A stretch of 64,000 nt of DNA from Edwardsiella piscicida (GTDB lineage: Bacteria > Pseudomonadota > Gammaproteobacteria > Enterobacterales > Enterobacteriaceae), in the NCBI RefSeq assembly GCF_001896205.1, contig NZ_MPNU01000001.1, positions 2,817,467-2,881,466 on the forward strand, in the 5' to 3' direction. A model generated the notes under the pieces. That model was not told the origin of the DNA, did not search any database, and was given only the letters and a program-made list of their open reading frames with translations. The position numbers and the translations under genes were made by a program. Below are positions 48,233 to 63,850 of the stretch, piece by piece (within the stretch, counting starts at the first letter, position 1; every line of letters starts with the position of its first letter).

Positions 48233-48943
48233 TTACCAGGTATATTTTAGACCGATACGATAGCGTCCCTGGCGCCGATCGCTGTCGCGGCTCTCCTTGA
48301 TATCGCCGATTTCGATAAAGGGGCGCCAGTTGGCATCAATGGCGTATACCACCCTAAAGTTATTCGCATAGTCCCACTTTTTACCGTTATACAGCGGCTG
48401 GCCGTTGGCGGACATCTCACGCATCAGATCCAGCTGATACTGAAAGTTCCACTGCCCCCACTTATAGCCAATAAACGTATCAAACTCCTGGATCTTTGAA
48501 TGGTAAGGCTGTTGGTCTACCCCCTTCATCGAGTAGTCCCATAGCTTCCACTTATAGCGCCCATTGATATAGAAACCATTATCAAAGGTGTAGTTCAGGC
48601 GCACAAACGGAATGAATACCAGCCCCTCAGAGGTAAAGTCAAAGGAGTTACCTGCCAGCAGCAGGGTATTTTTATTCAGATCGGTATAATAAAAAACATT
48701 TAGCTCAGAGCCATTCAGGTACATCTGATCATAGGCTTTATCATCGTGGTTACCATAGCGGGCATCAAACTCGAAGCCGATATGATTGCCGGTATCTAAA
48801 AATACCTTAAACCTATCGCTATGTTTTTTTACGCCCTCACGATACTCATGACGGTATTCAACGCTGGTTTTATAATTATTGGCCCATGACGGAGAGGCAG
48901 AAAACAAGCATGGGAGTGCGGCCAAGTAAATTAACTTGTTCAT
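48233..48943 (-). CDS. KdgM-family anionic oligosaccharide porin
   Basis: A 236-residue outer-membrane protein with a signal peptide (MNKLIYLAALPCLFSASPSWA). The mature part starts with the YKTSVEYRHEYREG strand and alternates as twelve-stranded barrels do, with FEFDARYG, GFYINGRYKWKLWDY and a terminal RIGLKYTW. Members such as KdgM and NanC pass negatively charged oligosaccharides (oligogalacturonates, sialic acid). A row of CTTTC motifs upstream resembles the AgaR sites of the adjacent locus, so it may bring in sulfated or uronate-containing oligosaccharides. Confidence 0.9.
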   Translation of the reverse strand: MNKLIYLAALPCLFSASPSWANNYKTSVEYRHEYREGVKKHSDRFKVFLDTGNHIGFEFDARYGNHDDKAYDQMYLNGSELNVFYYTDLNKNTLLLAGNSFDFTSEGLVFIPFVRLNYTFDNGFYINGRYKWKLWDYSMKGVDQQPYHSKIQEFDTFIGYKWGQWNFQYQLDLMREMSANGQPLYNGKKWDYANNFRVVYAIDANWRPFIEIGDIKESRDSDRRQGRYRIGLKYTW

Positions 48944-49140
48944 CGTATCCTTAACTCTTTTCAATATTAATTATTGACTGATGGGTAACCCGCGCGTTGC
49001 CGTTATGATGCCCGAGCCATAGCGCATTGACGCCGCGCAGCGCCGACGCCAGAGCGATCGAAGCCGCCGTTGGCGTAGGGATATACTACGCGCGCTAAAG
49101 TTTCATTTTATTACGCACGATCACAAAATCACACCAAATA

Positions 49141-49169
49141 GAAAGCAAGCGAAAGAAATAGAAAGAAAG
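49141..49169 (-). promoter_or_regulatory. AgaR-like CTTTC array upstream of the porin gene
   Basis: On the minus strand CTTTC ends successive ten-base units at 49165-49161, 49155-49151 and 49145-49141, with one more at 49169-49165. The exact ten-base step puts all on one face of the helix. The CTTTC-N5-CTTTC form is the same as upstream of agaR. Confidence 0.6.
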
Positions 49170-49183
49170 GATAGTGCCATAAT

Positions 49184-49216
49184 AAAAAAAACGGTATCCC
49201 CCGTAGGCGATACCGT
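49184..49216 (-). terminator. Intrinsic terminator after the DJ-1/PfpI gene
   Basis: ACGGTATC and GATACCGT form an eight-base-pair stem; on the minus strand it is followed by about eight T residues. It closes the unit running from the sulfatase maturase through the DJ-1-like gene and separates it from the porin gene. Confidence 0.88.
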
Positions 49217-49251
49217 CGCAGTAAAATAACCCCAAAACTTTCGGCAATCGA

Positions 49252-49833
49252 TCAATATCCCGTTAACGGCCAGCGCCGAAAATAGATATGGCTGGCCTGA
49301 GCATCTACCTTGGCAACATTATCCGCCAATAAATGGCGAGCGACGGTAAAGGCAAACTCAAAACTGACGCCCAGTCCCTTGGCCGAGATAAAGCGGCCAT
49401 CGACCACCACATCCCTGTCCACATACTCGCCGTCGGCAAAACGCTCGGCCAGCTTGTCTCCGGTGCTGTAGCGCCGTCCCTCGAGCAGGCCATGGGCGGC
49501 TAACACCTTGGCGCCAGAGGAGCACAGCGCGCAGATATATTTATCTGCCGCAATGTGGCGGCGTAAAAATGCGACCACGCTGGCGCTGGCGTTCAGGCGG
49601 TCGGTGCCCTGAGGCCCGCCCGGCATCATCACCGCGTCGTACAGCGTCTCCAGGCGATCGGCTAGCAGCGCATCGGCCCGGATAGGGGTCTCAAAATAGC
49701 TGTTCAGCGCCAGGCTCTCCTCGCAGGAGAGGATCTCCACCTGAATATCCAGGCGACGCATGATGTCGATAAACACCACCGCCTCACCCTCTTCAAACCC
49801 GTGCGCCAACAGGACGGCAACCCGTTTCGTCAT
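49252..49833 (-). CDS. DJ-1/PfpI family protein
   Basis: A 193-residue DJ-1 superfamily protein. The opening VAVLLAHGFEEGEAV carries the conserved Glu; the nucleophile elbow is ICALCSSGAKVLAAHGLL with Cys near residue 105. Length and motifs are close to YajL-type proteins, which act on glyoxal adducts or as chaperones, but the specific role is unknown. It ends the kbaY-containing transcription unit, so it may deal with reactive triose or carbonyl by-products of the aldolase pathway; that is an inference. Confidence 0.85.
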   Translation of the reverse strand: MTKRVAVLLAHGFEEGEAVVFIDIMRRLDIQVEILSCEESLALNSYFETPIRADALLADRLETLYDAVMMPGGPQGTDRLNASASVVAFLRRHIAADKYICALCSSGAKVLAAHGLLEGRRYSTGDKLAERFADGEYVDRDVVVDGRFISAKGLGVSFEFAFTVARHLLADNVAKVDAQASHIYFRRWPLTGY

Positions 49834-49847
49834 GCTCAGTGCTCTCC

Positions 49848-50720
<873 letters not shown>

Positions 50721-50756
50721 TCATCTGCTTTCATTTAATCATTAAAACAAAATAAA

Positions 50757-50771
50757 GAAAACATTCAAAAG
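50757..50771 (-). promoter_or_regulatory. Weak AgaR-like motif upstream of kbaY
   Basis: The minus strand reads CTTTT-GAATG-TTTTC, the YTTTY-N5-YTTTC pattern seen more clearly at agaR, the porin and the maturase genes. It lies about 55 bases upstream of kbaY in AT-rich DNA, so kbaY may have its own promoter. Confidence 0.35.
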
Positions 50772-50801
50772 ACAATAAAAGTGTGACATTGACCGGCGAA
50801 A

Positions 50802-52292
50802 CTAAAAGTAAAGATCCATCTTCGAACTGTAGCAGGTCACCCCCTTGCGCAGCAGGTTGTTTTTTGGCCGCTCGGCGCGCCCCGTTAGGCTCTCCTGCAG
50901 CCACTGCCACGGGCGCTGGCGCAGCAGGCGACGGCTCAGGGGACTCTGCGCCTTGGTATAGTCGTGCAGGAACAGCGCCACGCTCTCGCCGGTCTCCTGA
51001 CAGCCCAGAAGCTGCACGCCGATCGCGTCGATGCGGTGCGAAAAGTCGCCCTGCTCTACCGGCAGCGGCAGCGACGTCGCCTGCCATAGCCCGCTCTGCG
51101 GCGCGCTGTACAGCGCGATATTCAGCGCGCGCAGCGACCAAAAGCTGCTGGCCGGCCCGCTGTAGTTGTCCACCAGGCGCGCATCATCGGCAAACAGCCC
51201 CTGGGTCGGCGCGCCGGCCCGCATCGCCCCGTTGGCGATGAAATAGCGCAGCGTCACCTCCAGCGCCCGCCGCGCACAGCCCAGGCTCTGCGCCGTCGCA
51301 GCCTGACTGGCCTCCGCCAGCAGCGGCGCGGCGGCGGCCAGGCGATAGCAGGCGCTGCGGCCGAAGAAGGCGATCCCCTGGGGGGTAATCAGGTGACGGT
51401 AGCCGTCGTTAAACTGGCGCAGGGCGTCGTGAATAAAGGCCCGGTCAAACTGCGGATCGATCTGATCCAGCCAGTACAGGGAGTAGTGGAATCCCCAGGC
51501 ATTGTAGTAGTCATAGTTACCGCGCGCGCCGTCGCGGAACCACCCCTCGCCGACATAAAACGCCTTGATTCGCTGATACTTTTGCGGGTCTATCTCGCCT
51601 TCGCCGCTCAGATCACACAGCACCGCCTCGACCGTCAGGCCGAACAGGTGCCAGTTGTTGTCCACCGTTTGACGCGCCGGCACCTGGCGAAACCAGGTCA
51701 GGATCTGCGCGCGCGCGCGCGCGTCGAAGCGCGACCAGACCCACGTCTTGCTCAGCCACAGCGCCAGCGCCAGATCGGCGCTCTCGCAGATGCGCTGATC
51801 GTAGTCGTGCAGCGTACCCCAATAGCCGGGATGCGCCGGATCGGTGCCGGCCAGAAACGCCCGGCTCAGCATCTCGGCGATGTCCCAGCGCTGTCCGTTC
51901 AGCCCCGTCAGGACGCTGTTCCGCCCCTGCGCCGCCGCACTATGCAGCCAGGTCGCCAGCGTCGGCAGCACCCGGCTGCACCCCTCCATGGCGTCGGTGC
52001 GGGCATTCTGCTGACTGGGTCGGCCGGGGTAGTAGGCATGGGTATAATCCCACACCGCGTAGTGGTCAAACGCCTCCGCCACGTAGCGCACCAGCGTGTC
52101 GCACTGGCGCTCCAGCGGCTGGCTCTCGTCGGCAAAGCAGGCCCGCAGGGCGGCGTCGTTGCGGGTATAGGCGCGCTTACGCCAGCGCAGGCGGATCAGA
52201 CGCTCGCGCAGCAGACGCAGGTACATCTGCCCATCGGGGTGCTCATAGGGAATGATCGGACGCGGTGCGCCCTCGATTTTCTTCTGCGCCAT
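50802..52292 (-). CDS. DUF2264 family protein
   Basis: A 496-residue, mostly helical protein of the DUF2264 family, with WRKRAYTRNDAAL, ARTDAMEGCSRVLPTLATWL, NNWHLFGLTVEAVL and GAMRAGAPTQGLFADD motifs and no signal peptide. DUF2264 proteins have an (alpha/alpha)6-type look and are found near glycoside hydrolases in polysaccharide loci, but no activity is established to my knowledge. It lies 69 bases after the sulfatase gene in the same orientation. A role in cleavage or modification of uronate-containing oligosaccharides is an inference from context. Confidence 0.82.
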   Translation of the reverse strand: MAQKKIEGAPRPIIPYEHPDGQMYLRLLRERLIRLRWRKRAYTRNDAALRACFADESQPLERQCDTLVRYVAEAFDHYAVWDYTHAYYPGRPSQQNARTDAMEGCSRVLPTLATWLHSAAAQGRNSVLTGLNGQRWDIAEMLSRAFLAGTDPAHPGYWGTLHDYDQRICESADLALALWLSKTWVWSRFDARARAQILTWFRQVPARQTVDNNWHLFGLTVEAVLCDLSGEGEIDPQKYQRIKAFYVGEGWFRDGARGNYDYYNAWGFHYSLYWLDQIDPQFDRAFIHDALRQFNDGYRHLITPQGIAFFGRSACYRLAAAAPLLAEASQAATAQSLGCARRALEVTLRYFIANGAMRAGAPTQGLFADDARLVDNYSGPASSFWSLRALNIALYSAPQSGLWQATSLPLPVEQGDFSHRIDAIGVQLLGCQETGESVALFLHDYTKAQSPLSRRLLRQRPWQWLQESLTGRAERPKNNLLRKGVTCYSSKMDLYF

Positions 52293-52361
52293 ACGGACGC
52301 CCTCGCTCAGAAAAAAGTCAAAAAAAGGGCAGCGCATACGGCGCTGCCCCGCTCAGGCCCC

Positions 52362-53981
52362 TCAGCTGCGGGCCGACTGCTCCAGCATATGGTAGCGGTC
52401 CTGTCCCCAGGCGACCGGCTTGGGCTTGGTCTTGATCCAGTCGTGGTAGGCCGCCTTCATCTCGGCCACCCGCTGCGGATACTTGGTCGCCAGATCCTGA
52501 GACTCCGCCGGGTCGAGGCGATCGTTGAACAGCTGTACCCGATTGCTGCCGTCGTCATAGAAGTAGAGCGTCCACTCCCCGTCGCGTACCGCCCAGGATG
52601 AAGGCGAGAGCTTCTCCAGGTTCGGGTTCTTCGGCGGCATCGGCGCTTCATAGGTGATCCACTTCCAGTAGTCGAACCAGAACGGCTGGTTCTCCTCGCT
52701 GTAGTGCTTGGCGCCCGGCCCCGCCCAGAACAGGTAGCGGTGCGGTGACGTCTGCGCCTTACCGCTCAGCTGCGGCATGATGTCACGTCCGTCCACCTTC
52801 ATCGCGTCGGGGATAGTGATCCCGGCGGCCTTCAGCGCCGTAGGCAGAATATCGATGGCGCTGACCATCACGTTGCTCTGGGTACCGGCCGGGATATGCT
52901 TCGGCCAGTAGGCGACGAACGGCACGTGCACGCCGCCGTTGAACATCTGCCCCTTGAAGCCGCGATCCATTCCGTTGAGCGGCATCGGCGATTCGTGCAC
53001 CGCCCCGTTATCAGAAATGAAGAAGATCAGGGTGTTATCCAGCTCCCCCAGCGCCTTCAGGCGTTCGATAATCTGTCCAATGCCCTCGTCGGCGGCGTTG
53101 ACGGCGGCAAAATACTTGTCCGCCTCGGCGTTGCCGGTATGGAATTTATCCATATAGCGGGCCGGAGAGGCCTGCTCCAGCGGAATATGGGGAACGCTGT
53201 AGGCCAGACTGATGAAGAAGGGCTTGCCCTGATGATCGTCGAGAAACTTCAGCGTCTCGTTAGTCAGGTTATGGGTCAGGTAGCCCGGCGCGGCAATATT
53301 CTTGCCATTCTGCCAAATTGCCGGCGAATTCCACAGCGCCGCGCCGGAGGCGTAGTAGCTGTAGGAGTAATCGAAGCCGCGCGACTCCGGGCCATAGCCC
53401 GGTGCGCTGACGGAGATCATGTTGTCGTGATAGTCGCGGGTCTGATCGGCCTTATCGACAAAGTTCTTCTTGTCGATGCGGGCGTTGTGCCACTTGCCGA
53501 TATTGGCGGTCGCATAGCCGTTTTCCTGGAACAGCGCCGGCAGCAGCGTGATGTCCAGCGGAACGCCGAGCATAGCATCGTCGTTGCTGTAGGTGCCAAA
53601 GCTGGCCGGATAGCGCCCGGTGAAGATGCCGGCGCGGGACGGGCCGCACACTGGATGGGCGACAAAGGCGTTGGTCATTTTCACGCCCTGGTTCGCCAGC
53701 TGGGCCACGTTGGGCATCGCCCGACGCGCCGCATCGATCATCTTGTCCAGATCGCCCTGGTAACGCGCGGCCACCGGGCGTTTGCCCAGCGCCTGGGGAT
53801 CCAGCGCATCCAGCGCAAAGTCCAGCTGACCGGTGCCCAGATCGTCCATAATCACCAGCAGGACATTGGGGCGGCTGTCGGTCGCCGCCGCCGGCGCCGC
53901 CGACGCCGACGATGCACCGCACAGACAGGCAGCGGCCACCAGCCCTGCCAACTGCTTCTTTTTGCTACTGAAAAACGTCAT
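52362..53981 (-). CDS. Periplasmic sulfatase, Cys-type
   Basis: A 539-residue member of the arylsulfatase family. The signal peptide (LAGLVAAACLCGASSASA) directs export. The metal/substrate residues begin at LLVIMDDLG (about residues 41-49); the formylglycine site is CGPSR at residues 112-116 in the CxPSR form, so the active Cys needs conversion; GKWHN and FISDNGA follow. The upstream gene encodes the matching anaerobic maturase. It would remove sulfate esters from sugars in the periplasm. Sequence alone does not show whether 4-O- or 6-O-sulfated GalNAc, uronate or another sugar is the substrate. Confidence 0.92.
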   Translation of the reverse strand: MTFFSSKKKQLAGLVAAACLCGASSASAAPAAATDSRPNVLLVIMDDLGTGQLDFALDALDPQALGKRPVAARYQGDLDKMIDAARRAMPNVAQLANQGVKMTNAFVAHPVCGPSRAGIFTGRYPASFGTYSNDDAMLGVPLDITLLPALFQENGYATANIGKWHNARIDKKNFVDKADQTRDYHDNMISVSAPGYGPESRGFDYSYSYYASGAALWNSPAIWQNGKNIAAPGYLTHNLTNETLKFLDDHQGKPFFISLAYSVPHIPLEQASPARYMDKFHTGNAEADKYFAAVNAADEGIGQIIERLKALGELDNTLIFFISDNGAVHESPMPLNGMDRGFKGQMFNGGVHVPFVAYWPKHIPAGTQSNVMVSAIDILPTALKAAGITIPDAMKVDGRDIMPQLSGKAQTSPHRYLFWAGPGAKHYSEENQPFWFDYWKWITYEAPMPPKNPNLEKLSPSSWAVRDGEWTLYFYDDGSNRVQLFNDRLDPAESQDLATKYPQRVAEMKAAYHDWIKTKPKPVAWGQDRYHMLEQSARS

Positions 53982-54056
53982 TGCCAACTCCGTTGTTATG
54001 CATGTTTAACCAGGATGTGTACCGTAATGGTGCGTGTCGTCGACGCTCACGACCCG

Positions 54057-55286
54057 TTACGGAACACGTCCTAAAGACATCACATCCGCCGCCACCCCCC
54101 CGCGCCGGATCACCGCCTGCATCATCTGCATTGCCGGGGCGGTGTGGGTAAAAAAGTGCAGATAGGACGGGCACAGGTAGTTGTGCCGATGACGCTCGTC
54201 GGAGAGCCCCATAATTCGGTGTTTGGGACAGCCCCCCTGGCACAGCTGGCGCACCGGACACTGCTGACAGCGCGCCGTGAGCCGATCCTGCTTCGCCTGG
54301 CCAAAGCGCTGCTGACGCGCCGACGTCGCCAGCGTCGCCAGCGAGGTATCGGCAACGTTGCCCAGGCGGTTGGCCGGGTAGACAAAGTGGTCGCAGCTGT
54401 AGACGTCGCCGCTGGCTTCAATGATCATCGCCTGGCCGCAGGTGGCCGACTGAACGCAGGTCGAGGCCGGATAGCCCATCCATACCCCGAGCAGGCTGTC
54501 GAACTCACGCACGTAGTAGCGTCCGACGTCATGCGCCACCCAGGCATCAAAGACATCGGCCATAAACGCGCCGTAGCCGTGGGCCGGGACGCTAAAGGGC
54601 GCCATCTGCGGCGAGGCAGGCGGTGAATAGTGGTGGCCATGGCCACAGCCGCAGGCGGCGTCCACCTCCACCAGCGGAATGAACTGCATAAAGGTCGAGC
54701 CCAGCGCCTTGAGCGCCTCATAGGTCTGACGCCCCTTGTCCCAGTTCTGATCGTTCACCACCGTCAGGGTATTGAACTCGACCTGATGGCTACGCAGCGT
54801 GTCGATGGCGCGGCAGACGCGATCAAACGTGGGCTGCCCCTGCGCGGCGATACGGTAGCGGTTGTGCACCGCGGCCAGCCCATCCACCGAGACGCCGATC
54901 AGAAACCCGTTCTCGGCAAAGAAGTCGGCCCACTGGCTATTGATGGCGATCCCATTGGTCTGAAAGCTATTGGTGATGGTCTTGCCGCCGGCATATTTCT
55001 TCTGGTACTCCACGGCCCGCTGATAAAACGGCAGACCGGCCAGCATCGGCTCGCCGCCCTGCCAGGCAAAGTCCACCTGCTCCCCCGCGTGGGACTGGAT
55101 ATAGTCACGCACGTAGCGCCGCAGCGTCGCGTCGCTCATGGTTTCCGCCGAGCGCGCGCCGGCCTGCTGCGGCACTACCTCCTCCTTTTCCAGATAGAAG
55201 CAGTAGCTGCAGCGCAGATTGCAGCGATAGCTCGCTGGCTTGGCCATCATATGAAAGTTGGCTTGCTGTGACGGAGAACGCGACAT
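54057..55286 (-). CDS. Anaerobic sulfatase-maturating enzyme (radical SAM, AslB-like)
   Basis: A 409-residue radical SAM protein that oxidises the sulfatase active-site Cys to formylglycine without oxygen. The SAM cluster is CNLRCSYCF (Cys22, 26, 29). The C-terminal SPASM region has the extra cluster cysteines (TCGQAMIIEASGDVYSCDHF, CQQCPVRQLCQGGCPKHR and YLCPSYL). It works in the cytoplasm on the sulfatase before Sec export. It heads the unit anSME-sulfatase-DUF2264-kbaY-DJ-1. Confidence 0.94.
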   Translation of the reverse strand: MSRSPSQQANFHMMAKPASYRCNLRCSYCFYLEKEEVVPQQAGARSAETMSDATLRRYVRDYIQSHAGEQVDFAWQGGEPMLAGLPFYQRAVEYQKKYAGGKTITNSFQTNGIAINSQWADFFAENGFLIGVSVDGLAAVHNRYRIAAQGQPTFDRVCRAIDTLRSHQVEFNTLTVVNDQNWDKGRQTYEALKALGSTFMQFIPLVEVDAACGCGHGHHYSPPASPQMAPFSVPAHGYGAFMADVFDAWVAHDVGRYYVREFDSLLGVWMGYPASTCVQSATCGQAMIIEASGDVYSCDHFVYPANRLGNVADTSLATLATSARQQRFGQAKQDRLTARCQQCPVRQLCQGGCPKHRIMGLSDERHRHNYLCPSYLHFFTHTAPAMQMMQAVIRRGGVAADVMSLGRVP

Positions 55287-55366
55287 GGGAGAGACTCTTA
55301 TTTAAAACGATGTTTCTTATTTTACGAAATACAAGGAAAATAAGTGATGCGTAAAATCACAATACC

Positions 55367-55381
55367 GAAAAAAAACGAAAG
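55367..55381 (-). promoter_or_regulatory. AgaR-like motif upstream of the maturase-sulfatase unit
   Basis: The minus strand reads CTTTC-GTTTT-TTTTC, 81 bases upstream of the maturase start, in AT-rich promoter-like DNA. The surrounding bases (ATCTTTCG before, GGTATT after) also fit the degenerate AgaR consensus known from E. coli. Confidence 0.55.
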
Positions 55382-55450
55382 ATATTGAGCGGTACAGCGT
55401 AACCAAACAGGCACGTTTGCGCCGAGTCATGCGCGAATGAAAATCAATGA

Positions 55451-55477
55451 AAGAAAAGCCCGACACTAAGCCGGGCT
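55451..55477 (-). terminator. Terminator after the GH88/GH105-type gene
   Basis: AGCCCG and CGGGCT form a six-base-pair stem followed on the minus strand by TTTTCTTTC. It separates the aga PTS operon from the maturase-sulfatase unit, which therefore needs its own promoter. Confidence 0.8.
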
Positions 55478-55496
55478 AGAGATTCAGCGCTGCGGA

Positions 55497-56546
55497 TCAG
55501 GCATACAGCGCCAGCATCGCGCTGCCCGCCAGCAGATAAGCGCCCGCGCCGTAGTCAATATTGTGCTCCGCACTCACGTCGCGCGGGTTGAACGCCGGCA
55601 GCTGTACCCACCCCAGCATACCGTTGTCATGAATGCAGCCGCGCAGCGCCGACCAGGCGCGCTCAACCATGGGCAGATAGCGCGCGCGATCCAGGATCCC
55701 CTGCTGGATCCCCCAGGCCACGCCGTAGCAGAACAGCGCGGTGGCGCTGCTCTCCGGCGCCGGGAAGCGCGCCGGGTCGCGCATGCTGGTACGCCAGAAG
55801 CCGTCCGCCTGCTGATAGTCGCTCACCGTTGCCGCCAGGGCGCTGAACATCGCCAGATAGCGTGGGCGGCTGGGGTGATCGGTCGGCAGATGCGCCAGGA
55901 TACGCGGCACCGCGGCCAGCACCCAGCCGTTGCCGCGGCTCCAAAAGACCTTCTCGCCGTTCTCTTCGCGCAGTTCACCGCCTTTGCCATCGGGAATGTA
56001 GCGGTAATCGCGGTAAAACAGCCCGCTCTGCGCATCGTACAGGTGCTCGACCGCATCCCAGAAGGCGACATCCATATAGTCGGCATAGCGGCTATCGCCG
56101 GTGCGCGCGCTGAGGGCGGCAAAGGCCGGCGGCGCCATAAACAGCGCGTCGCACCACCACCAGTCCTCGCGCCCCGGACGCGGCTCATCCACCATCAGCC
56201 CCAGGGACTTGATGGTCGGCTCCAGCGCCTCTGGCTGATTCACCTGGGGATAGACATCCAGATAGGCCTGACAGCACACCATATCATCGGCGAAGCGGGC
56301 GTTAGGGCCGGTGCGGAAGCCGGTATGCAGGGTGTAGTTCATCACCCCGTCCAGATAGGTCGTATCGCCAGTGGCCTGCCAGGCCGCCGCCGCGCAGGAC
56401 CAGAACACGCCGCGCTCCCAGTCCGTATCCTTGATGAAGCGCGTCTTACCGCTGCGGCGTACGACGCTGCGCGTCTGGTGAGCCGCCTGATAGCGGTACA
56501 CCCGCAGCATGTCGCGCAGAATCTCTTCACGTGTTATCGCAGTCAT
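55497..56546 (-). CDS. Unsaturated uronyl hydrolase, GH88/GH105-type
   Basis: A 349-residue (alpha/alpha)6-barrel hydrolase without a signal peptide, so cytoplasmic. It has FADDMVCCQAYLDVYPQ (Asp87/88), WWWCDALFMAPP (Asp133) and FWSRGNGWVLAAVPRILAHL, a pattern of GH88/GH105 enzymes that hydrate and remove 4,5-unsaturated uronates left by polysaccharide lyases. The two Asp positions match the catalytic pair. It directly follows agaA in the PTS operon, which would give it a product pairing uronate with GalNAc. Specificity for chondroitin-type or pectin-type products cannot be decided. The start at 56546 excludes a long non-conserved extension. Confidence 0.85.
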   Translation of the reverse strand: MTAITREEILRDMLRVYRYQAAHQTRSVVRRSGKTRFIKDTDWERGVFWSCAAAAWQATGDTTYLDGVMNYTLHTGFRTGPNARFADDMVCCQAYLDVYPQVNQPEALEPTIKSLGLMVDEPRPGREDWWWCDALFMAPPAFAALSARTGDSRYADYMDVAFWDAVEHLYDAQSGLFYRDYRYIPDGKGGELREENGEKVFWSRGNGWVLAAVPRILAHLPTDHPSRPRYLAMFSALAATVSDYQQADGFWRTSMRDPARFPAPESSATALFCYGVAWGIQQGILDRARYLPMVERAWSALRGCIHDNGMLGWVQLPAFNPRDVSAEHNIDYGAGAYLLAGSAMLALYA

Positions 56547-56674
56547 TGCATTATCCTCGCTGGGCCCGCTCATCTCCGCACTGGCGATGACTCCCCTGCG
56601 GGCCTTCGGTTTACCGCGGCCATGGCTGACATGGCCGCGCCTGGTTGTGTAGGGGCGAGCGACGCCGCCGACGC

Positions 56675-57829
56675 TCAGGCCGGGCGTCGATAGGCGCACT
56701 CGCCGTTAATGTAGGTCTCCGCCACCGTCATGGCCGGATCCACCGCCGTAAAGCTGGCGGCGGCGCCGGGGCGGATCGCGCCCAGACGATCCTGCAGGCC
56801 GAGATAGGCCGCCGGCACCGCCGACGCCATCTGCACCGCCTCCCAGACCGGAACGCCGGCCAGGGTGACCATGTTACGCACCGCCTGATCCAGGCTGCAG
56901 GTGCTGCCCGCCAGCGAGCCGTCGTCGGTTCGCGCCTCGCCGTGGCGCACCGTGATCTCCTGAGCGCCCAGGCGATAGCGCCCTTCGCCCAGTCCACCGG
57001 CGCGCATGCAGTCGGTGATCAGCGCGATGTGGCGGTAGCCCTTCATTCGATAGGCCAGATTCAGCATCACCGGGTTAACGTGGATCCCGTCGGCGATCAG
57101 CTCCGCCAGCATATCCAGATACAGCACCGCGCCGCAGCAGCCCGGCTCCCGATGGTGCAGGCCAGACATGCCGTTATACAGATGCACGCCGCAGTCGGCG
57201 CCCAGCGCATGGGCCTCGTTGACCTGGGCAAAGCTGGCCGCGGTATGGGCTACGCCGACCTTTACGCCGCGCGCACGCCACCAGGCGATCGCCTGCATCG
57301 CCGCCGTCGACTCCGGCGCCAGCGCGGCGCGCAGCAGCGTTCCCTCGCTGGCCAGCCACAGGGCCTCCAGCGCGGCGCCCTCGGGGGCGCTCAGAAACGC
57401 CTCTGGGTGCGATCCCCGGAAGGGGGCGGTAAAGTGCGGCCCCTCCAGAAAGCTGCCCAGCAGGCGAGCCCCCTGCGCTTGACCGGCGGCGATAAACGCG
57501 CCGACCTGCCGCAGCGCCCGGCAGACATCCTGCTGCGGCGCGCTGACCGTGGTGCCGACCCAGGCCACCACGCCGGTCTGCGGCAGCGCATCGGCGATGG
57601 TCTGCAGCGCCTGCGGCGTCGCATCCATCACGTCGGCGCCGGCGCGACCGTGAATGTGGATATCGATAAGCCCCGGCCACAGGCTGTGACCGGGCAGACG
57701 CACCATCCGGGTGCCCGGCGGGATCGGCTGACCGACGCCGGTGATCACGCCGTCGGCAACCAGCACGGCGACGTCCCGCTCAATCCCTCGGGGGGTGAAT
57801 ACGCTGTCGGCCAGGTAGGCGGTTAACAT
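56675..57829 (-). CDS. agaA: N-acetylgalactosamine-6-phosphate deacetylase
   Basis: A 384-residue amidohydrolase of the NagA/AgaA family. Motifs: PGLIDIHIHGRAGADVMD (metal-binding HxH), FLEGPHFT with Glu, VGVAHTAAS with His, HLYNGMSGLHHREPG and ITDCMRAGG with the catalytic Asp. It removes acetate from GalNAc-6-P (or GlcNAc-6-P). Context (AgaS, KbaZ, AgaR, PTS) favours GalNAc-6-P. It starts three bases after the EIIA stop. Confidence 0.92.
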   Translation of the reverse strand: MLTAYLADSVFTPRGIERDVAVLVADGVITGVGQPIPPGTRMVRLPGHSLWPGLIDIHIHGRAGADVMDATPQALQTIADALPQTGVVAWVGTTVSAPQQDVCRALRQVGAFIAAGQAQGARLLGSFLEGPHFTAPFRGSHPEAFLSAPEGAALEALWLASEGTLLRAALAPESTAAMQAIAWWRARGVKVGVAHTAASFAQVNEAHALGADCGVHLYNGMSGLHHREPGCCGAVLYLDMLAELIADGIHVNPVMLNLAYRMKGYRHIALITDCMRAGGLGEGRYRLGAQEITVRHGEARTDDGSLAGSTCSLDQAVRNMVTLAGVPVWEAVQMASAVPAAYLGLQDRLGAIRPGAAASFTAVDPAMTVAETYINGECAYRRPA

Positions 57830-57832
57830 GGT

Positions 57833-58273
57833 TTACAGTCCGTCGCTGGCTTCACACTCGGCCGGTGCCATCGCAGCCTCCAGCGTCTGGCGCATATTCT
57901 GTACGCTGCTGGCGCCAATCTCCTGCAGAATGGCCACCAGCTCCGCCAGCGTCGCACCGTCGCGCTCAAAGGCGGCGTTGGCGATCATCGGCAGGTTGAC
58001 CCCGGCCAGCACCTCAACGCCCTCGCGGCGCATCAGTACGTTCAGCGCGCGGTTGCACGGCGAGCCCCCCGGCAGGTCGGTCAGGAACAGCACCCCTTCC
58101 CCGTCGTCGACCTCATCGGCCGCCTGGCGCAGCGCGTCCTCCAGATCGTCGGTCGACATGGATTCAACAAAATCGATAAAGCGCATCTGCGGCTGATCAC
58201 CGGCGATGGCGTGCACGGCGGAGGCCATGCCGGTTGCAAAATGGATGTGCCCGGAAATGACAAGACCAATCAT
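57833..58273 (-). CDS. agaF: PTS EIIA, mannose/GalNAc family
   Basis: A 146-residue EIIA of the mannose-family PTS. The phosphorylated His is residue 9 in LVISGHIHFATGM, the same place as in E. coli AgaF, and FLTDLPGGSPCNRA is typical. It passes phosphate from HPr to EIIB. The gene lies between EIID and agaA in the same operon. Confidence 0.92.
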   Translation of the reverse strand: MIGLVISGHIHFATGMASAVHAIAGDQPQMRFIDFVESMSTDDLEDALRQAADEVDDGEGVLFLTDLPGGSPCNRALNVLMRREGVEVLAGVNLPMIANAAFERDGATLAELVAILQEIGASSVQNMRQTLEAAMAPAECEASDGL

Positions 58274-58342
58274 CGTATTACCCTTACAGCTTACTCATCG
58301 GGAACGCCCCGCCCAGCCTTAGGCCGCGACGGGGCGCAGTGG

Positions 58343-59233
58343 TTACAGAATGCCCAGCAGGTGACCGACCACGCCGGCCGCCAGCGTGGAGAAGATCAGC
58401 ACCGGTGGCTTAGCCCAGAACCCGGTCCCCTTCACCATGCGGAACATAAAGAACACCAGCAGCAGCGGCAGCATGTTCGGCATGATCTTATCGAACAGGG
58501 CGCTCTGCAGATCCACCGTCTTGCCGCCGAGCTCTATCGACGCCGTGGTACTAAATCGTATAAAGGTGGCGCACAGCGCACCGATGACGAAGATACCCAT
58601 GATGTTGGCGGCGCGCGCCAGCTTCTCCGTCGCGTCGCTCATGCTGACCATCGCCGCCGTACCGGCGCGGTAGCCCATGAACATCAGGCCAAAGTAGACC
58701 AGGAAATGCACGACCTGATACAGGATGAAGAATACGAACGGACCGGCGATGGAGCCATCGATGGCGATGGATGCGCCCAGCGCCAGGGTCAGCGGCATCA
58801 GCGTCATGTGGTCAATGGCGTCGCCAATCCCACCGGTCGGCCCCATGCCCGCCACCTTCATCACGTTGATGGTCGACGGCTTCTCTTTGTTCTCTTCCAT
58901 CGCAATGGCGGTGCCCAGCAGGAAGGTGAACAGCTTCGGACTGGCGTTAAAGAACTGCAGATGGTTCTTCAGCGACTTGGCCAGATCCGCCCGGTTATTA
59001 CCGTGGATCTTCTTCAGCGCCGGGATCATCGAGTAGGCAAAACCACCGCCCTGCATACGTTCGAAGTTAAAGTTGCCTTCCATGAACAGGCCGCGGAACG
59101 CGCACTTCCACAGATCTTTCTTGGTGATAACCTTGCGGACCTCGCCATCCTGATAGGCATCAACGTTGTCTACCAGGCTTGCGGCCTTACGCTTTTCATC
59201 CTGCGCCGGGGAGATAATGACTTCAGATGCCAT
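58343..59233 (-). CDS. agaE: PTS EIID membrane component
   Basis: A 296-residue EIID with the family's GNFNFERMQGGGFAYSMIPALK, FFNASPKLFTFLLGTAIAMEE and MGPTGGIGDAID segments, then hydrophobic stretches toward the C-terminus. Together with EIIC it forms the sugar channel. Its first bases overlap the EIIC stop. Mannose-family EIICD pairs bring in GalNAc, galactosamine, mannose and, in some Gram-positives, unsaturated disaccharides from glycosaminoglycans. Confidence 0.92.
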   Translation of the reverse strand: MASEVIISPAQDEKRKAASLVDNVDAYQDGEVRKVITKKDLWKCAFRGLFMEGNFNFERMQGGGFAYSMIPALKKIHGNNRADLAKSLKNHLQFFNASPKLFTFLLGTAIAMEENKEKPSTINVMKVAGMGPTGGIGDAIDHMTLMPLTLALGASIAIDGSIAGPFVFFILYQVVHFLVYFGLMFMGYRAGTAAMVSMSDATEKLARAANIMGIFVIGALCATFIRFSTTASIELGGKTVDLQSALFDKIMPNMLPLLLVFFMFRMVKGTGFWAKPPVLIFSTLAAGVVGHLLGIL

Positions 59234-59993
59234 CTTCGAATTCCTCTTTAACCTGCTGCTGTGAATTGGTCTTATTACCGCTGAAGAAGTAGTACAGCAC
59301 CGCGATGGACGCGCCGAGGATCGCCACGGCCATGATCGGCAGCTTCAGATAGGTGGTCATGACGAAGCCGATGAAGAACACCCCGGCCATCTCTTTGGAC
59401 CACATGATTTTCAGCAGCATGGCGAAGCCGATAGCCGGAACCATCTTGGCACCGATACCCAGCCCTTCCAGCAGCGCTTTCGGCGTGTTCTGATCGATCC
59501 ACTCGGCGGCGTGCTCACCGAAGTAGACCGTGGCAAAGGCGATCACGAAGTACAGCATCGAGCGGGTGATGATGGTGCCTATCAGCAGGCGGGAAATACC
59601 GCCGGCATCGGCCTGTTCCGCGCACTCGTCCGCTTTACCCATGGTGAACGCGGTCAGCGCAAAGAAACCGATGACGATCATCTGCATCAAGACCGCGATC
59701 GGCATGCCGACCCCCATGGCCACTTCCGGAGACTGGCCGGTCATCACAGCGAAGGCGACGGCGGCGATGGTGCCCATGGTCACATCCGGCGGCTGCGCCC
59801 CGGCGTTCGGCACCAGACCCAGCCAGGCCAGCTCCAGGGTGGCGCCGGCGATCAGCCCGATCTCCATATTCCCCATGATTAAACCGACCACCGGGCCAGT
59901 AATTAATGGACGGTGAATATTTAATGCAACGTCGTATTTATCGATACCACATAAGAATGCCCAAATGGCAACCAGGGTAGCTTCGAAGACCAT
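59223..59993 (-). CDS. agaW: PTS EIIC membrane component
   Basis: A 256-residue EIIC with about seven hydrophobic segments and the signature GLIMGNMEIGLIAGATLELAWLGL and GAQPPDVTMGTIAAVAFAV motifs near the N-terminus. It is the translocating partner of EIID. It lies 53 bases after EIIB; the gap holds a GGGGGG...CCCCC hairpin (60007-60026) that may adjust expression of the membrane subunits. Confidence 0.9.
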   Translation of the reverse strand: MVFEATLVAIWAFLCGIDKYDVALNIHRPLITGPVVGLIMGNMEIGLIAGATLELAWLGLVPNAGAQPPDVTMGTIAAVAFAVMTGQSPEVAMGVGMPIAVLMQMIVIGFFALTAFTMGKADECAEQADAGGISRLLIGTIITRSMLYFVIAFATVYFGEHAAEWIDQNTPKALLEGLGIGAKMVPAIGFAMLLKIMWSKEMAGVFFIGFVMTTYLKLPIMAVAILGASIAVLYYFFSGNKTNSQQQVKEEFEDGI

Positions 59994-60046
59994 AAATATA
60001 TTCCTTAGACGGAGTGTTACAGCGGGGGAATAATCCCCCCACTGAA

Positions 60047-60544
60047 TTAGGCGCTTTTAGCCAGTGTCAGAATATCAACCGGTGACTGGTCTGGCGTATT
60101 CTGCACGGTGCAGGAAACCCCCAGATTGATCATGCGACGGAAGGCATCCAGATCGCTGTCATCAACCGATACCGTCTTAGCGATTTGGCGCTTGCCCTCA
60201 TGGAAATGCATATTACCGATATTACAATGAGTAATCGGCACACCGCCCTCAACCAGGCGCGCAACATCGTGCGGATTATTGCACAGAATAAAAATTTTCT
60301 GGCGCGCGGCGGCTTTGTGAATCACATCGATGGTTTTTTGAATGGTAAAGAAGCGCACATCATATTCACCGCCAGCGGAGGCTTTCATCCCCGCCTGCAT
60401 AAATGCAGCGCTATCGCCTTCGGCCGCGTCATCATTAGCCACCAGAATCAGGTTGGCCTCCGTATGTTTACCCCAGGTAATGCGGATCTGCCCGTGCAGT
60501 AAACGTTCGTCGATACGAGTCCAGACAATGTTAGGCTGATTCAT
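60047..60544 (-). CDS. agaV: PTS EIIB, mannose/GalNAc family
   Basis: A 165-residue EIIB: the phosphorylated His lies in IDERLLHGQIRITWG near residue 17, and FILCNNPHDVARLVEGG and CNIGNMHF are typical. It receives phosphate from EIIA and passes it to the incoming sugar. The ATG at 60544 overlaps the agaS end by 14 bases and has AAGGGAAA upstream, so it is chosen over an ATG nine codons earlier. Confidence 0.92.
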   Translation of the reverse strand: MNQPNIVWTRIDERLLHGQIRITWGKHTEANLILVANDDAAEGDSAAFMQAGMKASAGGEYDVRFFTIQKTIDVIHKAAARQKIFILCNNPHDVARLVEGGVPITHCNIGNMHFHEGKRQIAKTVSVDDSDLDAFRRMINLGVSCTVQNTPDQSPVDILTLAKSA

Positions 60545-61727
60545 AAATTTTCCCTTCGAGTGATTTTTCAAAACCGTAAATAGTTACGCCCTGAACAACC
60601 CGGTTAATCTCCCCGGTCGGAGATGGGTTATCCGGTGAATTTCCAACGGCGATTGAATTATGGAATGCAAATGCCTGTGCCAACATCAAATACGCAAATA
60701 ACAGTCCAATGTCATCGCTTTGCGCTACGCCCGGCACAATAATATGCCGACCGGCAGTTACCGTATTATCTTCATAGGCGGACACGGCAATAATTTCGCG
60801 TGCAACATTATCGCTACGAAGCTCTTTCAACAGGTCGAGGTCGTACTTACGCGTATAAGGATTGTTAGAAATAAAAACGAAGATTAATGTTTCGTTGTTA
60901 ACTATTGCTTTAGGGCCATGACGGAATCCCAACGGGGAATCGAACATAGCAGCAATTCTTCCTGAGGTTAATTCCAGCACCTTCAGTGCCGACTCCTGAG
61001 CCAATCCTTGTAATCCTCCGCTACCAAGATAGATAACGCGCTGATACTGCCCGGCCCGGATATTATCTACAAATTGGCGGTTTATTTGTTTGAACCAATC
61101 CGCACTTTTTTTACAAAATTCTTCGATATCTTTCGAATATTTATCAAGACCGGCAAAAATCGTAACTGCCGCCATCATCATGGAGGAGAAGCTGGAGGTC
61201 ATCGCCAGCGACTGATCGTTGGTCTCCGGCGGCGTCAACACCGCCAGCGCGTCCGGGCTATTCTGGCAGAAGCGGTACAGATGACCGTCCTGGTTACAGG
61301 TCAGCACCAGATGGCAGCACTGGGTCAGGCACTCGGAGGCCACCTGCAGCGCCGCGACGCTCTCCGGACTGTTGCCGGAGCGGGCGAAAGAGACCAGCAG
61401 GGTCGGGACATCTTCGCTCAGATACTGCTGCGGGCAGGAGACCAGATCGGTGGTGGCGATCGCCTCCATCCGGCGTGACACATAGCGTGACAGCAGCGGC
61501 ACCAGCGCACGGCCGGCAAAGGCCGAGGTGCCTGCGCCGGTGAAGATCACCCGCGCATTATCGGCGGCCAGCGCACGGCGTAGAAACGTCTCGATCTCCG
61601 TGTGCATGCCGCTGACGATCTGCTGGGTCTTCTCCCAGCATACCGGCTGTTGCTCAATCTCTTTCGCCGTCCATGTCGCGCCGAGACGCTGCAGCGCGTC
61701 CAGGTCATATCCCATATAGTGTTGCAT
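60531..61727 (-). CDS. agaS: AgaS, galactosamine-6-phosphate deaminase/isomerase-type SIS protein
   Basis: A 398-residue two-SIS-domain protein of the AgaS family. Sugar-phosphate loops are visible in FTGAGTSAFAGRAL and SFARSGNSPESVAAL; the second domain has YLGSGGLQGLAQESALKVLEL and MFDSPLGFRHGPKAIV. It converts galactosamine-6-P to tagatose-6-P and ammonia in the E. coli pathway. The ATG at 61727 has AGGA seven bases upstream. It follows kbaZ after 13 bases. Confidence 0.92.
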   Translation of the reverse strand: MQHYMGYDLDALQRLGATWTAKEIEQQPVCWEKTQQIVSGMHTEIETFLRRALAADNARVIFTGAGTSAFAGRALVPLLSRYVSRRMEAIATTDLVSCPQQYLSEDVPTLLVSFARSGNSPESVAALQVASECLTQCCHLVLTCNQDGHLYRFCQNSPDALAVLTPPETNDQSLAMTSSFSSMMMAAVTIFAGLDKYSKDIEEFCKKSADWFKQINRQFVDNIRAGQYQRVIYLGSGGLQGLAQESALKVLELTSGRIAAMFDSPLGFRHGPKAIVNNETLIFVFISNNPYTRKYDLDLLKELRSDNVAREIIAVSAYEDNTVTAGRHIIVPGVAQSDDIGLLFAYLMLAQAFAFHNSIAVGNSPDNPSPTGEINRVVQGVTIYGFEKSLEGKIYESA

Positions 61728-61740
61728 AGTCACGTCCTAA

Positions 61741-63021
61741 TTAGTTACGCAGGCAGGCCTGCGCGTAGCCGGATAAAATCTGTTTAATGTGCGCCTTGAC
61801 CAACGCCTCAGGCTGCAGCGCCAGTTCGCCTTCACGCACGGCGGTGAACTCGCGCGGCAGATACTGGCTGAGCAGCGGATAAGGGATCGGCGCCTGGGTC
61901 AGGTTGTGGAACAGCGTCTGCTGTGCCGCCTGCACCGCCGGCGTCGGCCAGTAGTAGCGAATGCGGTCGCTGAAGCTGTAGCGACGGGCGAAACGCACCT
62001 GCTCGTCGCTGCCGCTGTAGTATTTTTGCCAGTTCTGCGGGGCTTCCAGCATCGCCGTTTCAATCGCCTGGCGCAGACCGGAACACTGCTCCGGCCCATA
62101 CATTTCCTCTTCGATGTGGCACAGGCTGAACAGCGCCTCACGCAGGGCGAAGGTCAGCGCCGGGCCGACCTTCAGGATCGCAAAGTGGTTGTCCACCAGC
62201 TCGCGGTAGGCGCGATCGGTCTGGTAATCGGTGGAGTGGGCCTCGAACACCTGGTGCGGGTAATCCGCCAGCACCTGGCTGAGCGCCTGGGCCTGCTGCG
62301 GGCGAAAATCGATCACCCCGGTATGGTCAAACTCGACGCCCGGCTGTACGACCAGGCCGATGACGCGGTTCCAGCATTCGGCGATCCCGGCGCGGGCAAA
62401 GGCTTCGCGGTGACACTCGATGGTCTGGCGCGCCGCCTGCGGCGAGGTGACCTCCAGCGTATCGATATGCTCTTTGGCGCCGCCCGGCACCGGCACTTCG
62501 GTACCGATAACGTACACCAGCTGGCTACGGCCAACCTGTTCACGGGCGGTGCGCTCGGCGATGGCGGCCAGACGTGCGGCGCGCTCGGCGACCGTGGCAT
62601 CGCTCAGCGGCACCGGATCGTCGGCGCAGGACATGCTGCAATCGAGATGGATTTTTTGGAAACCGGCGGCCACGTAGGCGGCGATCAGGGTGTCGGCGTG
62701 GGCCATCGCCTCGGCGGCCGGCAGGTGCTGCCAGCGGTTAGGGCCCAAATGGTCGCCGCCCAGGATCAGGTTGGCTAACGGGAACTGCAGTAAATCGGCC
62801 TGGCGACAGACATAGTCGCGAAAATCGGCCGGCGTCATCCCGGTGTAGCCGCCAAACTGATCCACCTGGTTGGAGGTGGCTTCGATCAGCAGGAGCGAGT
62901 CGTCCTGCAGCGCCTGCTCCATCGCGGCCTCAATCACCAGCGGATGGGCAGAGCAGACTGAATAGATACCGACCGGCTCACCGGCCTTGTGACGCTGTAC
63001 GAGCTGTTCTAACTGATGCAT
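61741..63021 (-). CDS. kbaZ: Tagatose-bisphosphate aldolase accessory subunit KbaZ
   Basis: A 426-residue GatZ/KbaZ-type protein, with [59 protein letters not shown] and [13 protein letters not shown], all characteristic. It is needed for full activity and stability of KbaY; it has no proven kinase function of its own. It is the first structural gene after agaR. Tagatose-6-P kinase is not encoded in the window and would have to be supplied elsewhere, for example by PfkA. Confidence 0.94.
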
Positions 63022-63070
63022 CAAAATACTCCACAATAAACACGGGCCGGTTTACCGTGGAGTCAGCGCG

Positions 63071-63850
63071 TCACTTCTCTTTTTCAGCGATAATCACTTC
63101 AACGTGTGCTTCCCGCAGACGCTCGACGTACTCGTCGGGAATGCCGGAATCCGTGACCAGAATATCGATATCAGCGAAGTCCCGGATCATGTGGTAGCCG
63201 CGCTTGCCAAACTTGGTCGAGTCGGCAACGGCGATCACCTGATCGGAGATCTCACACATCAAGCGGTTAAGACTGGCTTCCTGCTCATTGTGTGTGGTGA
63301 TACCCGCCCGCAAATCGAAACCATCCACCCCGAGAAAAACCTTGTCGAAACAGAAGTTTTTCAAACAGGCTTCGGCCTGCGAGCCTGAAAAAGACATTGC
63401 GCTCTTACGTAACACCCCGCCGGTGCAGACCACTTCCACTCCCGGCGAGGAGACGAGCTCCACGGCGACATCCAGACCGTTAGTCATGACCACCACGTTC
63501 TCCAGGCCCCGCAGGTGCCCGGCGATCTCACGGGTCGTCGTACCAGAATCCAGAATCACCGCGTCACCGCTGTTAATCAGCTTGGCCGCCGCCAGACCTA
63601 TCTGAGACTTCACACCGCTGTTGCGGTGGCGCTTCTCGTGGACGCTCAGTTCGGCGATCACCCCGGTATTAGGGATTGCCGCGCCGTGCGAACGCACGAT
63701 GTAGCCGTTCTCTTCCAGAAAAGTCAGGTCACTGCGGATGGTGACGCTTGAGACGTTAAACCGTGCGGCCAACTCCTCAACGCGTGCCTTCCCTTGGGCG
63801 GTCACTACGTTGAAGATTTCCATGCGCCTTTCGATTGCTGCCGCTTTCAC
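63071..63850 (-). CDS. agaR: AgaR, DeoR-family repressor
   Basis: A 259-residue DeoR-type regulator. The N-terminal helix-turn-helix (RVEELAARFNVSSVTIRSDLTFLEENGYIVRSHGAA) is followed by the sugar-phosphate sensor domain with ILDSGTTTREIA, TNGLDVAVEL and FLGVDGFDLRAGITTHNEQEA. It matches AgaR of E. coli, which represses the aga genes until an intermediate is bound. The frame starts with GTG at 63850. Several CTTTC repeats lie upstream, as expected for autoregulation. Confidence 0.93.
   Translation of the reverse strand: MKAAAIERRMEIFNVVTAQGKARVEELAARFNVSSVTIRSDLTFLEENGYIVRSHGAAIPNTGVIAELSVHEKRHRNSGVKSQIGLAAAKLINSGDAVILDSGTTTREIAGHLRGLENVVVMTNGLDVAVELVSSPGVEVVCTGGVLRKSAMSFSGSQAEACLKNFCFDKVFLGVDGFDLRAGITTHNEQEASLNRLMCEISDQVIAVADSTKFGKRGYHMIRDFADIDILVTDSGIPDEYVERLREAHVEVIIAEKEK

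Follow-up and report, generated by a model that had tools for sequence, protein, structure and literature searches.

A gene cluster at positions 48233 to 63850 of a 64,000-nucleotide stretch of the Edwardsiella piscicida genome (contig NZ_MPNU01000001.1; the whole stretch is here called the window) appears to encode a system for using chondroitin or dermatan sulfate under the repressor AgaR. That these polymers are used is very probable; import of the intact disaccharide by the phosphotransferase system (PTS) of the locus is likely, and the scheme as a whole is only slightly less so. Gene content, gene families, N-terminal signals, gene linkage, and operator-like sites were computed. All coordinates are window positions unless a contig (C1) or another locus is named, all genes of the locus are on the minus strand, and papers are cited by PMC accession, in most cases for portions of their text.

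In the proposed pathway, secreted lyases of polysaccharide lyase family 8 (PL8), coded elsewhere in the genome, would cut the polymer into unsaturated disaccharides plus one saturated glucuronate (GlcA)–N-acetylgalactosamine (GalNAc) unit per original chain end, and KdgM-type porins would let these disaccharides into the periplasm. There, two Cys-type sulfatases activated by an anaerobic maturase would desulfate the reducing-end GalNAc, the sulfatase of the lyase locus at C4 and that of the window at C6, and the free C6 hydroxyl would make the disaccharide a possible PTS substrate. A mannose-family enzyme II (EII) would import and phosphorylate it, and probably take up free GalNAc too. In the cytoplasm, a DUF2264 dehydratase would turn saturated GlcA ends into hydrolase substrate and a GH105-like hydrolase would remove the unsaturated uronate; the released GalNAc-6-phosphate would pass to AgaA, AgaS, and KbaYZ, and the uronate to KduI and KduD. 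The substrates, the intact-disaccharide transport, and the phosphorylated intermediate are what we infer.

Lyases and Sulfatases of Chondroitin Type

The original prediction, made from the window's letters, had read the cluster as serving sulfated, lyase-cut disaccharides such as those from chondroitin or dermatan sulfate, and had proposed a genome search for a lyase. We searched the whole 3.84-Mb genome for PL8 and obtained two matches, C1:3287632 and C1:3290720, both outside the window. They are tandem 1022-residue proteins of chondroitinase ABC types: the first matches chondroitin ABC lyase I at 1393 bits, and the nearest match of the second is 2q1f (482 bits). Upstream of the pair lies a second Cys-type sulfatase (790 bits to a chondroitin/dermatan 4-O-endosulfatase), with porin-like and autotransporter-like genes, named by eye, in between. 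Among 10 Proteus loci, 8 have both lyases next to the locus itself, and the remaining two end early. Two lyases of Edwardsiella tarda LMG2793 are reported to degrade chondroitin sulfate and to be inactive on hyaluronan (PMC8306027), in keeping with the substrate reading and with the statement in the original prediction that some Edwardsiella degrade chondroitin sulfate; chondroitinase has also been termed a virulence factor of Edwardsiella (PMC8714846). An autotransporter-type gene adjoins PL8 lyases in Edwardsiella (L084 6627-8717, by eye), in seven Proteus loci (e.g., L044 17901-20084), and in an Escherichia coli island (L097 20141-22828, annotated); its product possibly displays or binds polymer.

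The lyase, the uronate isomerase and reductase, and tagatose-6-phosphate kinase had been listed as missing from the window. They are indeed absent from it, but the lyases and KduI (an open 278-residue frame) lie elsewhere in the genome, so these are no true gaps; no tagatose-6-phosphate kinase is listed in the annotated E. coli K-12 aga cluster either.

The window sulfatase (52362–53987; PF00884, 196 bits; CGPSR motif) is a probable GalNAc-6-O-exosulfatase, judged by short peptides. Its possible counterpart, Photobacterium PB_3285 (507 residues plus a 28-residue signal), takes the 6-O-sulfate off the reducing-end GalNAc of unsaturated disaccharides with low specific activity, 3.64 mU/mg (PMC8819143). 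The PB_3285 primers encode AYVATPVCGPSRAGMLTGR, the Photobacterium loci read NAYVATPVCGPSRAGMMTGR, and the window sulfatase reads NAFVAHPVCGPSRAGIFTGR. In the primer-coded peptides, the only PB_3285 sequence compared, 18 of 19 residues match the Photobacterium orthologues, whose frames of 535–537 residues are 61–62% identical to the window sulfatase. In a hydropathy test, a hydrophobic N-terminus was present in 19 of 21 window-type sulfatases and in none of 38 lyase-locus-type sulfatases; those of the latter inspected begin SRRxxLKG, which is read as Tat-type. The anaerobic sulfatase-maturating enzyme (54057–55286) passes TIGR03942 with 512.6 bits (cut-off 349). Since C6-sulfated disaccharides cannot serve as PTS substrates (PMC6837340), a 6-O-sulfatase would be a step that a PTS route needs.

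A locus for pectin- or ulvan-type unsaturated uronides, with the aga genes as coincidental neighbors, would suit a hydrolase whose nearest solved relative is an ulvan enzyme and a porin (48233–48943; PF06178, 116 bits) of the KdgM family of oligogalacturonate porins. Against this stand the chondroitinase-type lyases with their neighboring 4-O-sulfatase homologue, the placement of such lyases beside the Proteus loci, the likeness of the window sulfatase to a GalNAc-6-O-sulfatase, and the action of a DUF2264-family enzyme on chondrosine (PMC12269599). We consider pectin or ulvan use exceedingly unlikely and rejected it on the lyases and sulfatases. A plain GalNAc operon was likewise rejected, on the presence of the hydrolase, dehydratase, and sulfatases.

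A Predicted Cytoplasmic Hydrolase Linked to a Mannose-Family PTS

Relatives of the locus came from one species-genome scan seeded on the window hydrolase (55497–56546; PF07470 (Glyco_hydro_88), 248 bits), of which we kept the best 80 of 99 confirmed loci. Linkage was counted in the 60 gammaproteobacterial loci among them (L004–L062 and L064), within flanks of at most 10 kb, and the other 20 formed the unlinked comparison; several of these are short, so that absence of EII there is not always decidable. The closest named hydrolase relatives are from E. anguillarum and E. ictaluri (97% identity). All four EII genes lie upstream of the hydrolase on the same strand in 57 of the 60 loci; of the exceptions, L020 and L059 reach a contig end and L043 is without a detected IIA. 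Also present among the 60 are AgaS or KbaZ (55 loci), AgaA (53), KduI or KduD (49), either sulfatase at 50% identity or more (46), the maturase (39), PL8 at 30% or more (21), and DUF2264 at 40% or more (21).

By closest sequence the hydrolase is GH105-like and not nearest to the GH88 unsaturated glucuronyl hydrolases (UGLs) such as those of Bacillus GL1 and Streptococcus agalactiae. Among solved structures it is most similar to 4ce7, a GH105 enzyme acting on ulvan (E 1e-62 by single sequence, 8e-95 by profile), and GH88 UGL chains, including 2zzr and 3ank, are absent among its listed structure matches; the two that follow 4ce7 in rank, 5noa and 4q88, bear the name of family 88 in the Protein Data Bank, and the Pfam model is shared by both families. 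The paired catalytic residues Asp88 and Asp133 are invariant in 21 aligned rows. None of the 60 PTS-linked hydrolases has a hydrophobic N-terminus in a simple hydropathy test, in contrast to 18 of 18 assessable unlinked hydrolases among the 20 outside the gammaproteobacteria, Bacteroidota included; the test left out L063 (a fused open reading frame trimmed to the C-terminal 400 residues) and L078 (at a contig edge). These counts suggest a cytoplasmic hydrolase, as the original prediction had supposed, in loci with a linked PTS, and an exported one where no PTS is seen.

The transporter genes encode IIB (60047–60544; 50% identity to E. coli AgaV), IIC (59223–59993; 41% to AgaW), IID (58343–59233; PF03613, 271 bits; likeness to AgaE), and IIA (57833–58273; PF03610; EIIA-man, 92 bits). 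The EII trees covered the window and 23 of the 60 loci, together with two E. coli islands and named outgroups. In the EIID tree, the 24 hydrolase-linked loci (window included) and both islands grouped as a single clade (100/99) that excluded E. coli and Klebsiella AgaE, AgaD, and the window genome's second EII; in the EIIC tree, 23 rows grouped together (99/96). The window IIC shares 75–98% identity with its counterparts in the hydrolase-linked loci compared, L054 (46%) being the exception.

The same polymer could be used with a PTS that carries free GalNAc only, the disaccharide entering by another transporter or the hydrolase reaching the outside of the membrane by some unknown route. The window EII does resemble GalNAc-type AgaV, AgaW, and AgaE at 41–50% identity, as well as AgaVWEF as a set, and AgaA, AgaS, and KbaYZ form a GalNAc pathway. 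On chondroitin sulfate C, as on GalNAc, growth of a Proteus mirabilis HI4320 ptsH mutant is poor; this speaks for a PTS route but fits free GalNAc import equally, and is read in the latter way by its authors; the mutant is also poor on several nitrogen sources (PMC13289894). Only one mannose-family EIID occurs in P. mirabilis ATCC 29906, so that this EII may carry GalNAc. On the other side, none of the 60 PTS-linked hydrolases has a hydrophobic N-terminus. Among unmatched clusters occurring in five or more loci, the lone transporter-like gene (by eye) is of sodium-solute-symporter type and sits among apparent sialic-acid genes in 8 Photobacterium loci; the genome's other transporters were not searched for. 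Salmonella and E. coli loci retain EII with the hydrolase and lack the GalNAc genes: in Salmonella arizonae/diarizonae (L029, L030), genes for EII, hydrolase, sulfatases, and DUF2264 are grouped, but those for AgaS, KbaZ, and AgaA are missing from the group, AgaS being on another contig. The E. piscicida genome also has a second locus of AgaS-EII type, probably for a related sugar. Import of GalNAc alone is, on balance, unlikely. Because P. mirabilis ATCC 29906 has this EIID only and the HI4320 ptsH mutant is poor on GalNAc, the EII probably takes both the disaccharide and GalNAc.

That second aga-like locus (L112 5146-9448) holds DeoR, AgaS-like, IIB, IIC, and IID genes with no adjoining IIA recognized; it may serve free amino sugars.

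A Predicted Glucuronate Dehydratase

Between the sulfatase and aldolase genes lies a DUF2264 gene (50802–52337, likely start 52292; PF10022). We assign its product, as a probable cytoplasmic dehydratase, to the β-D-glucuronate dehydratase family (former GH154) on sequence and model comparison. It matches the Bacteroides caccae glucuronate dehydratase BcGDH (9o4u) with E 1e-11 as a single sequence and 4.1e-67 with a 19-row profile; 9nwf and 8oi4 are likewise matched by sequence. Its AlphaFold2 model (mean pLDDT 87, pTM 0.91) is closest in fold to 8oi4 (Z 28.2), 9o4u (Z 26.7; rmsd 3.6 over 356), and 9nwf (Z 26.0), the next row being at 19.7; Foldseek gave E 8e-11 to 6e-9 for these three, with query TM-scores of 0.52–0.59. 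Loss of any of E74, R78, N176, N177, W178, F181, Y229, R285, Y289, and Y354 abolished detectable BcGDH activity (PMC12269599). All ten residues are present in the DUF2264 protein, seven aligned directly (N212, N213, W214, F217, Y263, R312, and Y316) and three (E103, R107, and Y377) placed by spacing and profile alignment to 8oi4. None of 21 DUF2264 proteins has a hydrophobic N-terminus in the hydropathy test. The family's glucuronate dehydratase acts on chondrosine and makes the unsaturated end that a uronyl hydrolase requires (PMC12269599). We rejected truncation or frameshift of the gene, because most of its full-length relatives have a similar C-terminal RAERPKNNLLRKGV motif. A search of open-access literature found nothing joining DUF2264 and chondroitin.

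In three non-gammaproteobacterial loci (L077, L080, L081), the gene for an exported hydrolase homologue is accompanied by a DUF2264 gene (24–25% identity); the pairing is therefore older than the PTS arrangement or arose twice.

A Basic Segment That May Read Phosphate

Compared with 4ce7, the hydrolase has a ten-residue insertion directly before the TDW to which Trp43 belongs. It falls in a basic segment, RSVVRRSGKTRFIKDTDWERG (residues 26–46), that occurs in some form in the PTS-linked enzymes; for the remaining nine solved matches the alignment begins at residue 39 or beyond, which leaves them without a clear message on it. Segment net charge has a median of +5 (range 2 to 7) in 63 PTS-linked proteins and of −1 (range −2 to +4) in 20 unlinked proteins, with the unlinked L065 (+4) and L069 (+3) overlapping the linked range. 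Judged by where the profile alignments start, Trp43 corresponds to residue 41 of YteR and lies close to residue 25 of CA_C0359; both are active-site tyrosines (PMC4528949). The segment may thus read the phosphate that EII would place on GalNAc C6, beside an active-site aromatic residue. Action of the hydrolase on a 6-phosphorylated disaccharide has close to an even chance. A touch below even, in our judgment, is the wider proposal: a 6-phospho-disaccharide hydrolase within GH105, a periplasmic 6-O-sulfatase gating C6, a dehydratase admitting saturated disaccharides, and a phosphorylated glycosaminoglycan (GAG) route common to many Gammaproteobacteria. The PTS-linked hydrolases are probably one clade; signal loss and gain of the basic segment may therefore be a single event.

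Gene Order and Operator-Like Sites

The minus-strand order is agaR-kbaZ-agaS-IIB-IIC-IID-IIA-agaA-hydrolase, then maturase-sulfatase-DUF2264-kbaY-pfpI, then kdgM, with all frames open. Every gene named in the original prediction was found in place, by family models or, for IIB and IIC, by likeness to the E. coli proteins; DUF2264 and a DJ-1/PfpI family gene (49252–49833; PF01965) had been overlooked. The latter, 3′ of kbaY, is present in 7 of the 60 related loci. The AgaR-type DeoR repressor (63071–63850; PF00455 and PF08220) is 72–85% identical to AgaR of most non-Edwardsiella loci, 62–66% to that of Pasteurellaceae, and 32% to that of L054. KbaZ, the tagatose-bisphosphate aldolase subunit (61741–63036), reaches 796 bits with NF012002 (cut-off 707). 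Three labels are softer than the rest. The AgaS-family galactosamine-6-phosphate deaminase/isomerase (60531–61733) scores 518.6 bits with TIGR02815, below the cut-off of 529.2. The KbaY-type aldolase (49848–50708) passes the tagatose-bisphosphate family model TIGR01858 (489.9 bits, cut-off 443.55) and fails the KbaY equivalog model (387.5 vs. 542). AgaA, a GalNAc-6-phosphate deacetylase of the NagA family (56675–57829), passes the nagA model TIGR00221 (268.8 bits, cut-off 225.65). Elsewhere in the window, an ALIL pseudoknot, a hallmark of IS3-type elements, lies at 13841–13957.

Pattern matching placed candidate AgaR-like operators, all on the minus strand, before the maturase gene (55368–55381, exact), at 55440–55453 (one mismatch), and before kdgM (49142–49155, one mismatch). 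The pattern, CTTTCRTTTNNTTT, has four exact matches in the genome, one of them before the maturase gene and another ∼25 bases before the lyase-locus sulfatase gene. At up to one mismatch, 6 of 27 sites fall within the two loci (∼28 kb), where ∼0.2 would be expected if sites were even, without correction for base composition. The three sites in the window compare with 0.20 expected, and 0 of 100 shuffles reach three; the two in the lyase locus (L084) compare with 0.09, and 2 of 200 shuffles reach two. Operator-like sites lie at both loci; the original prediction had proposed a search for a lyase with the same operators. Conserved strings, but no clean operator consensus, came out of a k-mer search of the DNA 5′ of agaR at 55 loci.

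Several results, together with the P. mirabilis data above, weigh against the scheme. The operator pattern was picked by inspection of intergenic DNA, coming from the E. coli aga cluster and recurring between genes in Edwardsiella, and so is partly post hoc; the other two exact sites lie elsewhere with no GAG gene recognized beside them, and the 27 sites genome-wide do not exceed the 35 of a reversed control. The EIIC tree leaves the E. coli islands and L054 unplaced (81/42), and both EII trees carry a long-branch warning, such joins being possibly false. The nearest solved chains of the window sulfatase are carrageenan sulfatases, two entries labeled S1-19. The genome's kduD is split into two overlapping frames (C1:2130577-2131319), by lesion or by sequence error; it is whole in three other Edwardsiella genomes compared. 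The GH105 enzyme YteR binds the unsaturated disaccharide dGlcA-GalNAc but fails to hydrolyze it (PMC4528949).

Distribution of the Locus

A similar gene set, with single genes gained or lost, occurs in Edwardsiella, Yersinia, Salmonella, Proteus, Providencia, Budvicia, Photobacterium, Aliivibrio, Vibrio, Psychromonas, and Pasteurellaceae; because much the same set recurs across these genera, its arrangement is not chance. The locus is also patchy, since in a draw of 40 genomes from the same GTDB family (its own included) none of the 39 others has a hydrolase match above 34% identity.

The E. coli island runs DeoR-EII-GH105-DUF2264-unknown-PL8-autotransporter, and the 25 kb of it examined holds no aga catabolic genes. 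Its DeoR-to-PL8 part is present at 80% coverage or more in 46 of 5426 E. coli genomes and in 10 plasmid records. As a mobile hyaluronan-type cassette (L097 10587-20131; L098 5758-16415), it occurs on E. coli chromosomes and on plasmids of E. coli, Yersinia enterocolitica, and Citrobacter.

The likeness of this island to a hyaluronan plasmid locus of Enterobacter asburiae (a PL8 of 799 aa in both, a PTS, and two GH88-type genes) would suit hyaluronan disaccharide, and not chondroitin sulfate, as the main substrate of the E. piscicida system too. Two sulfatases and a maturase are of no use on unsulfated hyaluronan, and AgaA-AgaS-KbaYZ fit GalNAc and not N-acetylglucosamine. With the E. tarda ABC lyases reported to degrade chondroitin sulfate but not hyaluronan (PMC8306027), we regard a hyaluronan substrate as very unlikely.

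If the chondroitin or dermatan sulfate scheme is true, it would explain cartilage glycan use by Proteus, Edwardsiella, some Yersinia, Photobacterium, and relatives, give a chemical reason for the 6-O-sulfatase, and offer a new reading of the P. mirabilis ptsH phenotype on chondroitin sulfate. It would also add an intracellular dehydratase step of the kind described in Bacteroides and propose phosphorylated disaccharides as a new substrate class for GH105. To our knowledge, a PTS disaccharide pathway has been shown by experiment only in a Gram-positive.

Comparison with Known Systems

The E. coli aga/gam cluster shares AgaR, KbaZ, AgaS, KbaY, a mannose-family EII, and AgaA with the locus. It differs in that hydrolase, sulfatase, dehydratase, and porin are not annotated in the stretches seen, and in its GalNAc EII, which is 41–50% identical and lies outside the EIID clade. 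Photobacterium sp. QA16 has both sulfatase types, a lyase-locus-type 4-O-sulfatase and a reducing-end GalNAc-6-O-exosulfatase (PB_3262 and PB_3285; PMC8819143); these were studied as tools, in passages that take up neither the locus nor a PTS or dehydratase. In B. caccae PUL25 (PMC12269599), a former-GH154 glucuronate dehydratase is likewise paired with an unsaturated uronyl hydrolase on chondroitin, but this is a Bacteroidota polysaccharide utilization locus with PL35, GH88, and GH109, and the available text makes no mention of a PTS.

The original prediction had held a disaccharide PTS to be novel in an enteric bacterium. The idea itself is not new: published models of hyaluronan use in Vibrio alginolyticus LWW-9 (PMC8222515) and the enteric E. 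asburiae CGJ001 (PMC11432990), which have PL8, a GH88-type hydrolase, and a PTS, already include import of unsaturated disaccharide by that PTS. These differ in their substrate, hyaluronan, in that import is a proposal, and in that sulfatase and dehydratase are not named in the parts of the texts at hand. Among the matches listed in open-access literature, we found no account of a gammaproteobacterial PTS route for chondroitin sulfate that includes sulfatases and a dehydratase.

A close parallel is the GAG-PTS cluster of S. agalactiae (PMC6837340), in which EII genes are clustered with a cytoplasmic unsaturated glucuronyl hydrolase and PTS import of unsaturated hyaluronan disaccharide was demonstrated. 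That system is Gram-positive and serves hyaluronan, and its UGL (2zzr, 3ank) is not among the listed matches of the window hydrolase. The E. piscicida locus has several features of a GAG-PTS type cluster, namely clustering of EII with the hydrolase, a predicted cytoplasmic location of that hydrolase, and a GAG lyase in the genome; its EII would, in the proposed scheme, import and phosphorylate the disaccharide.

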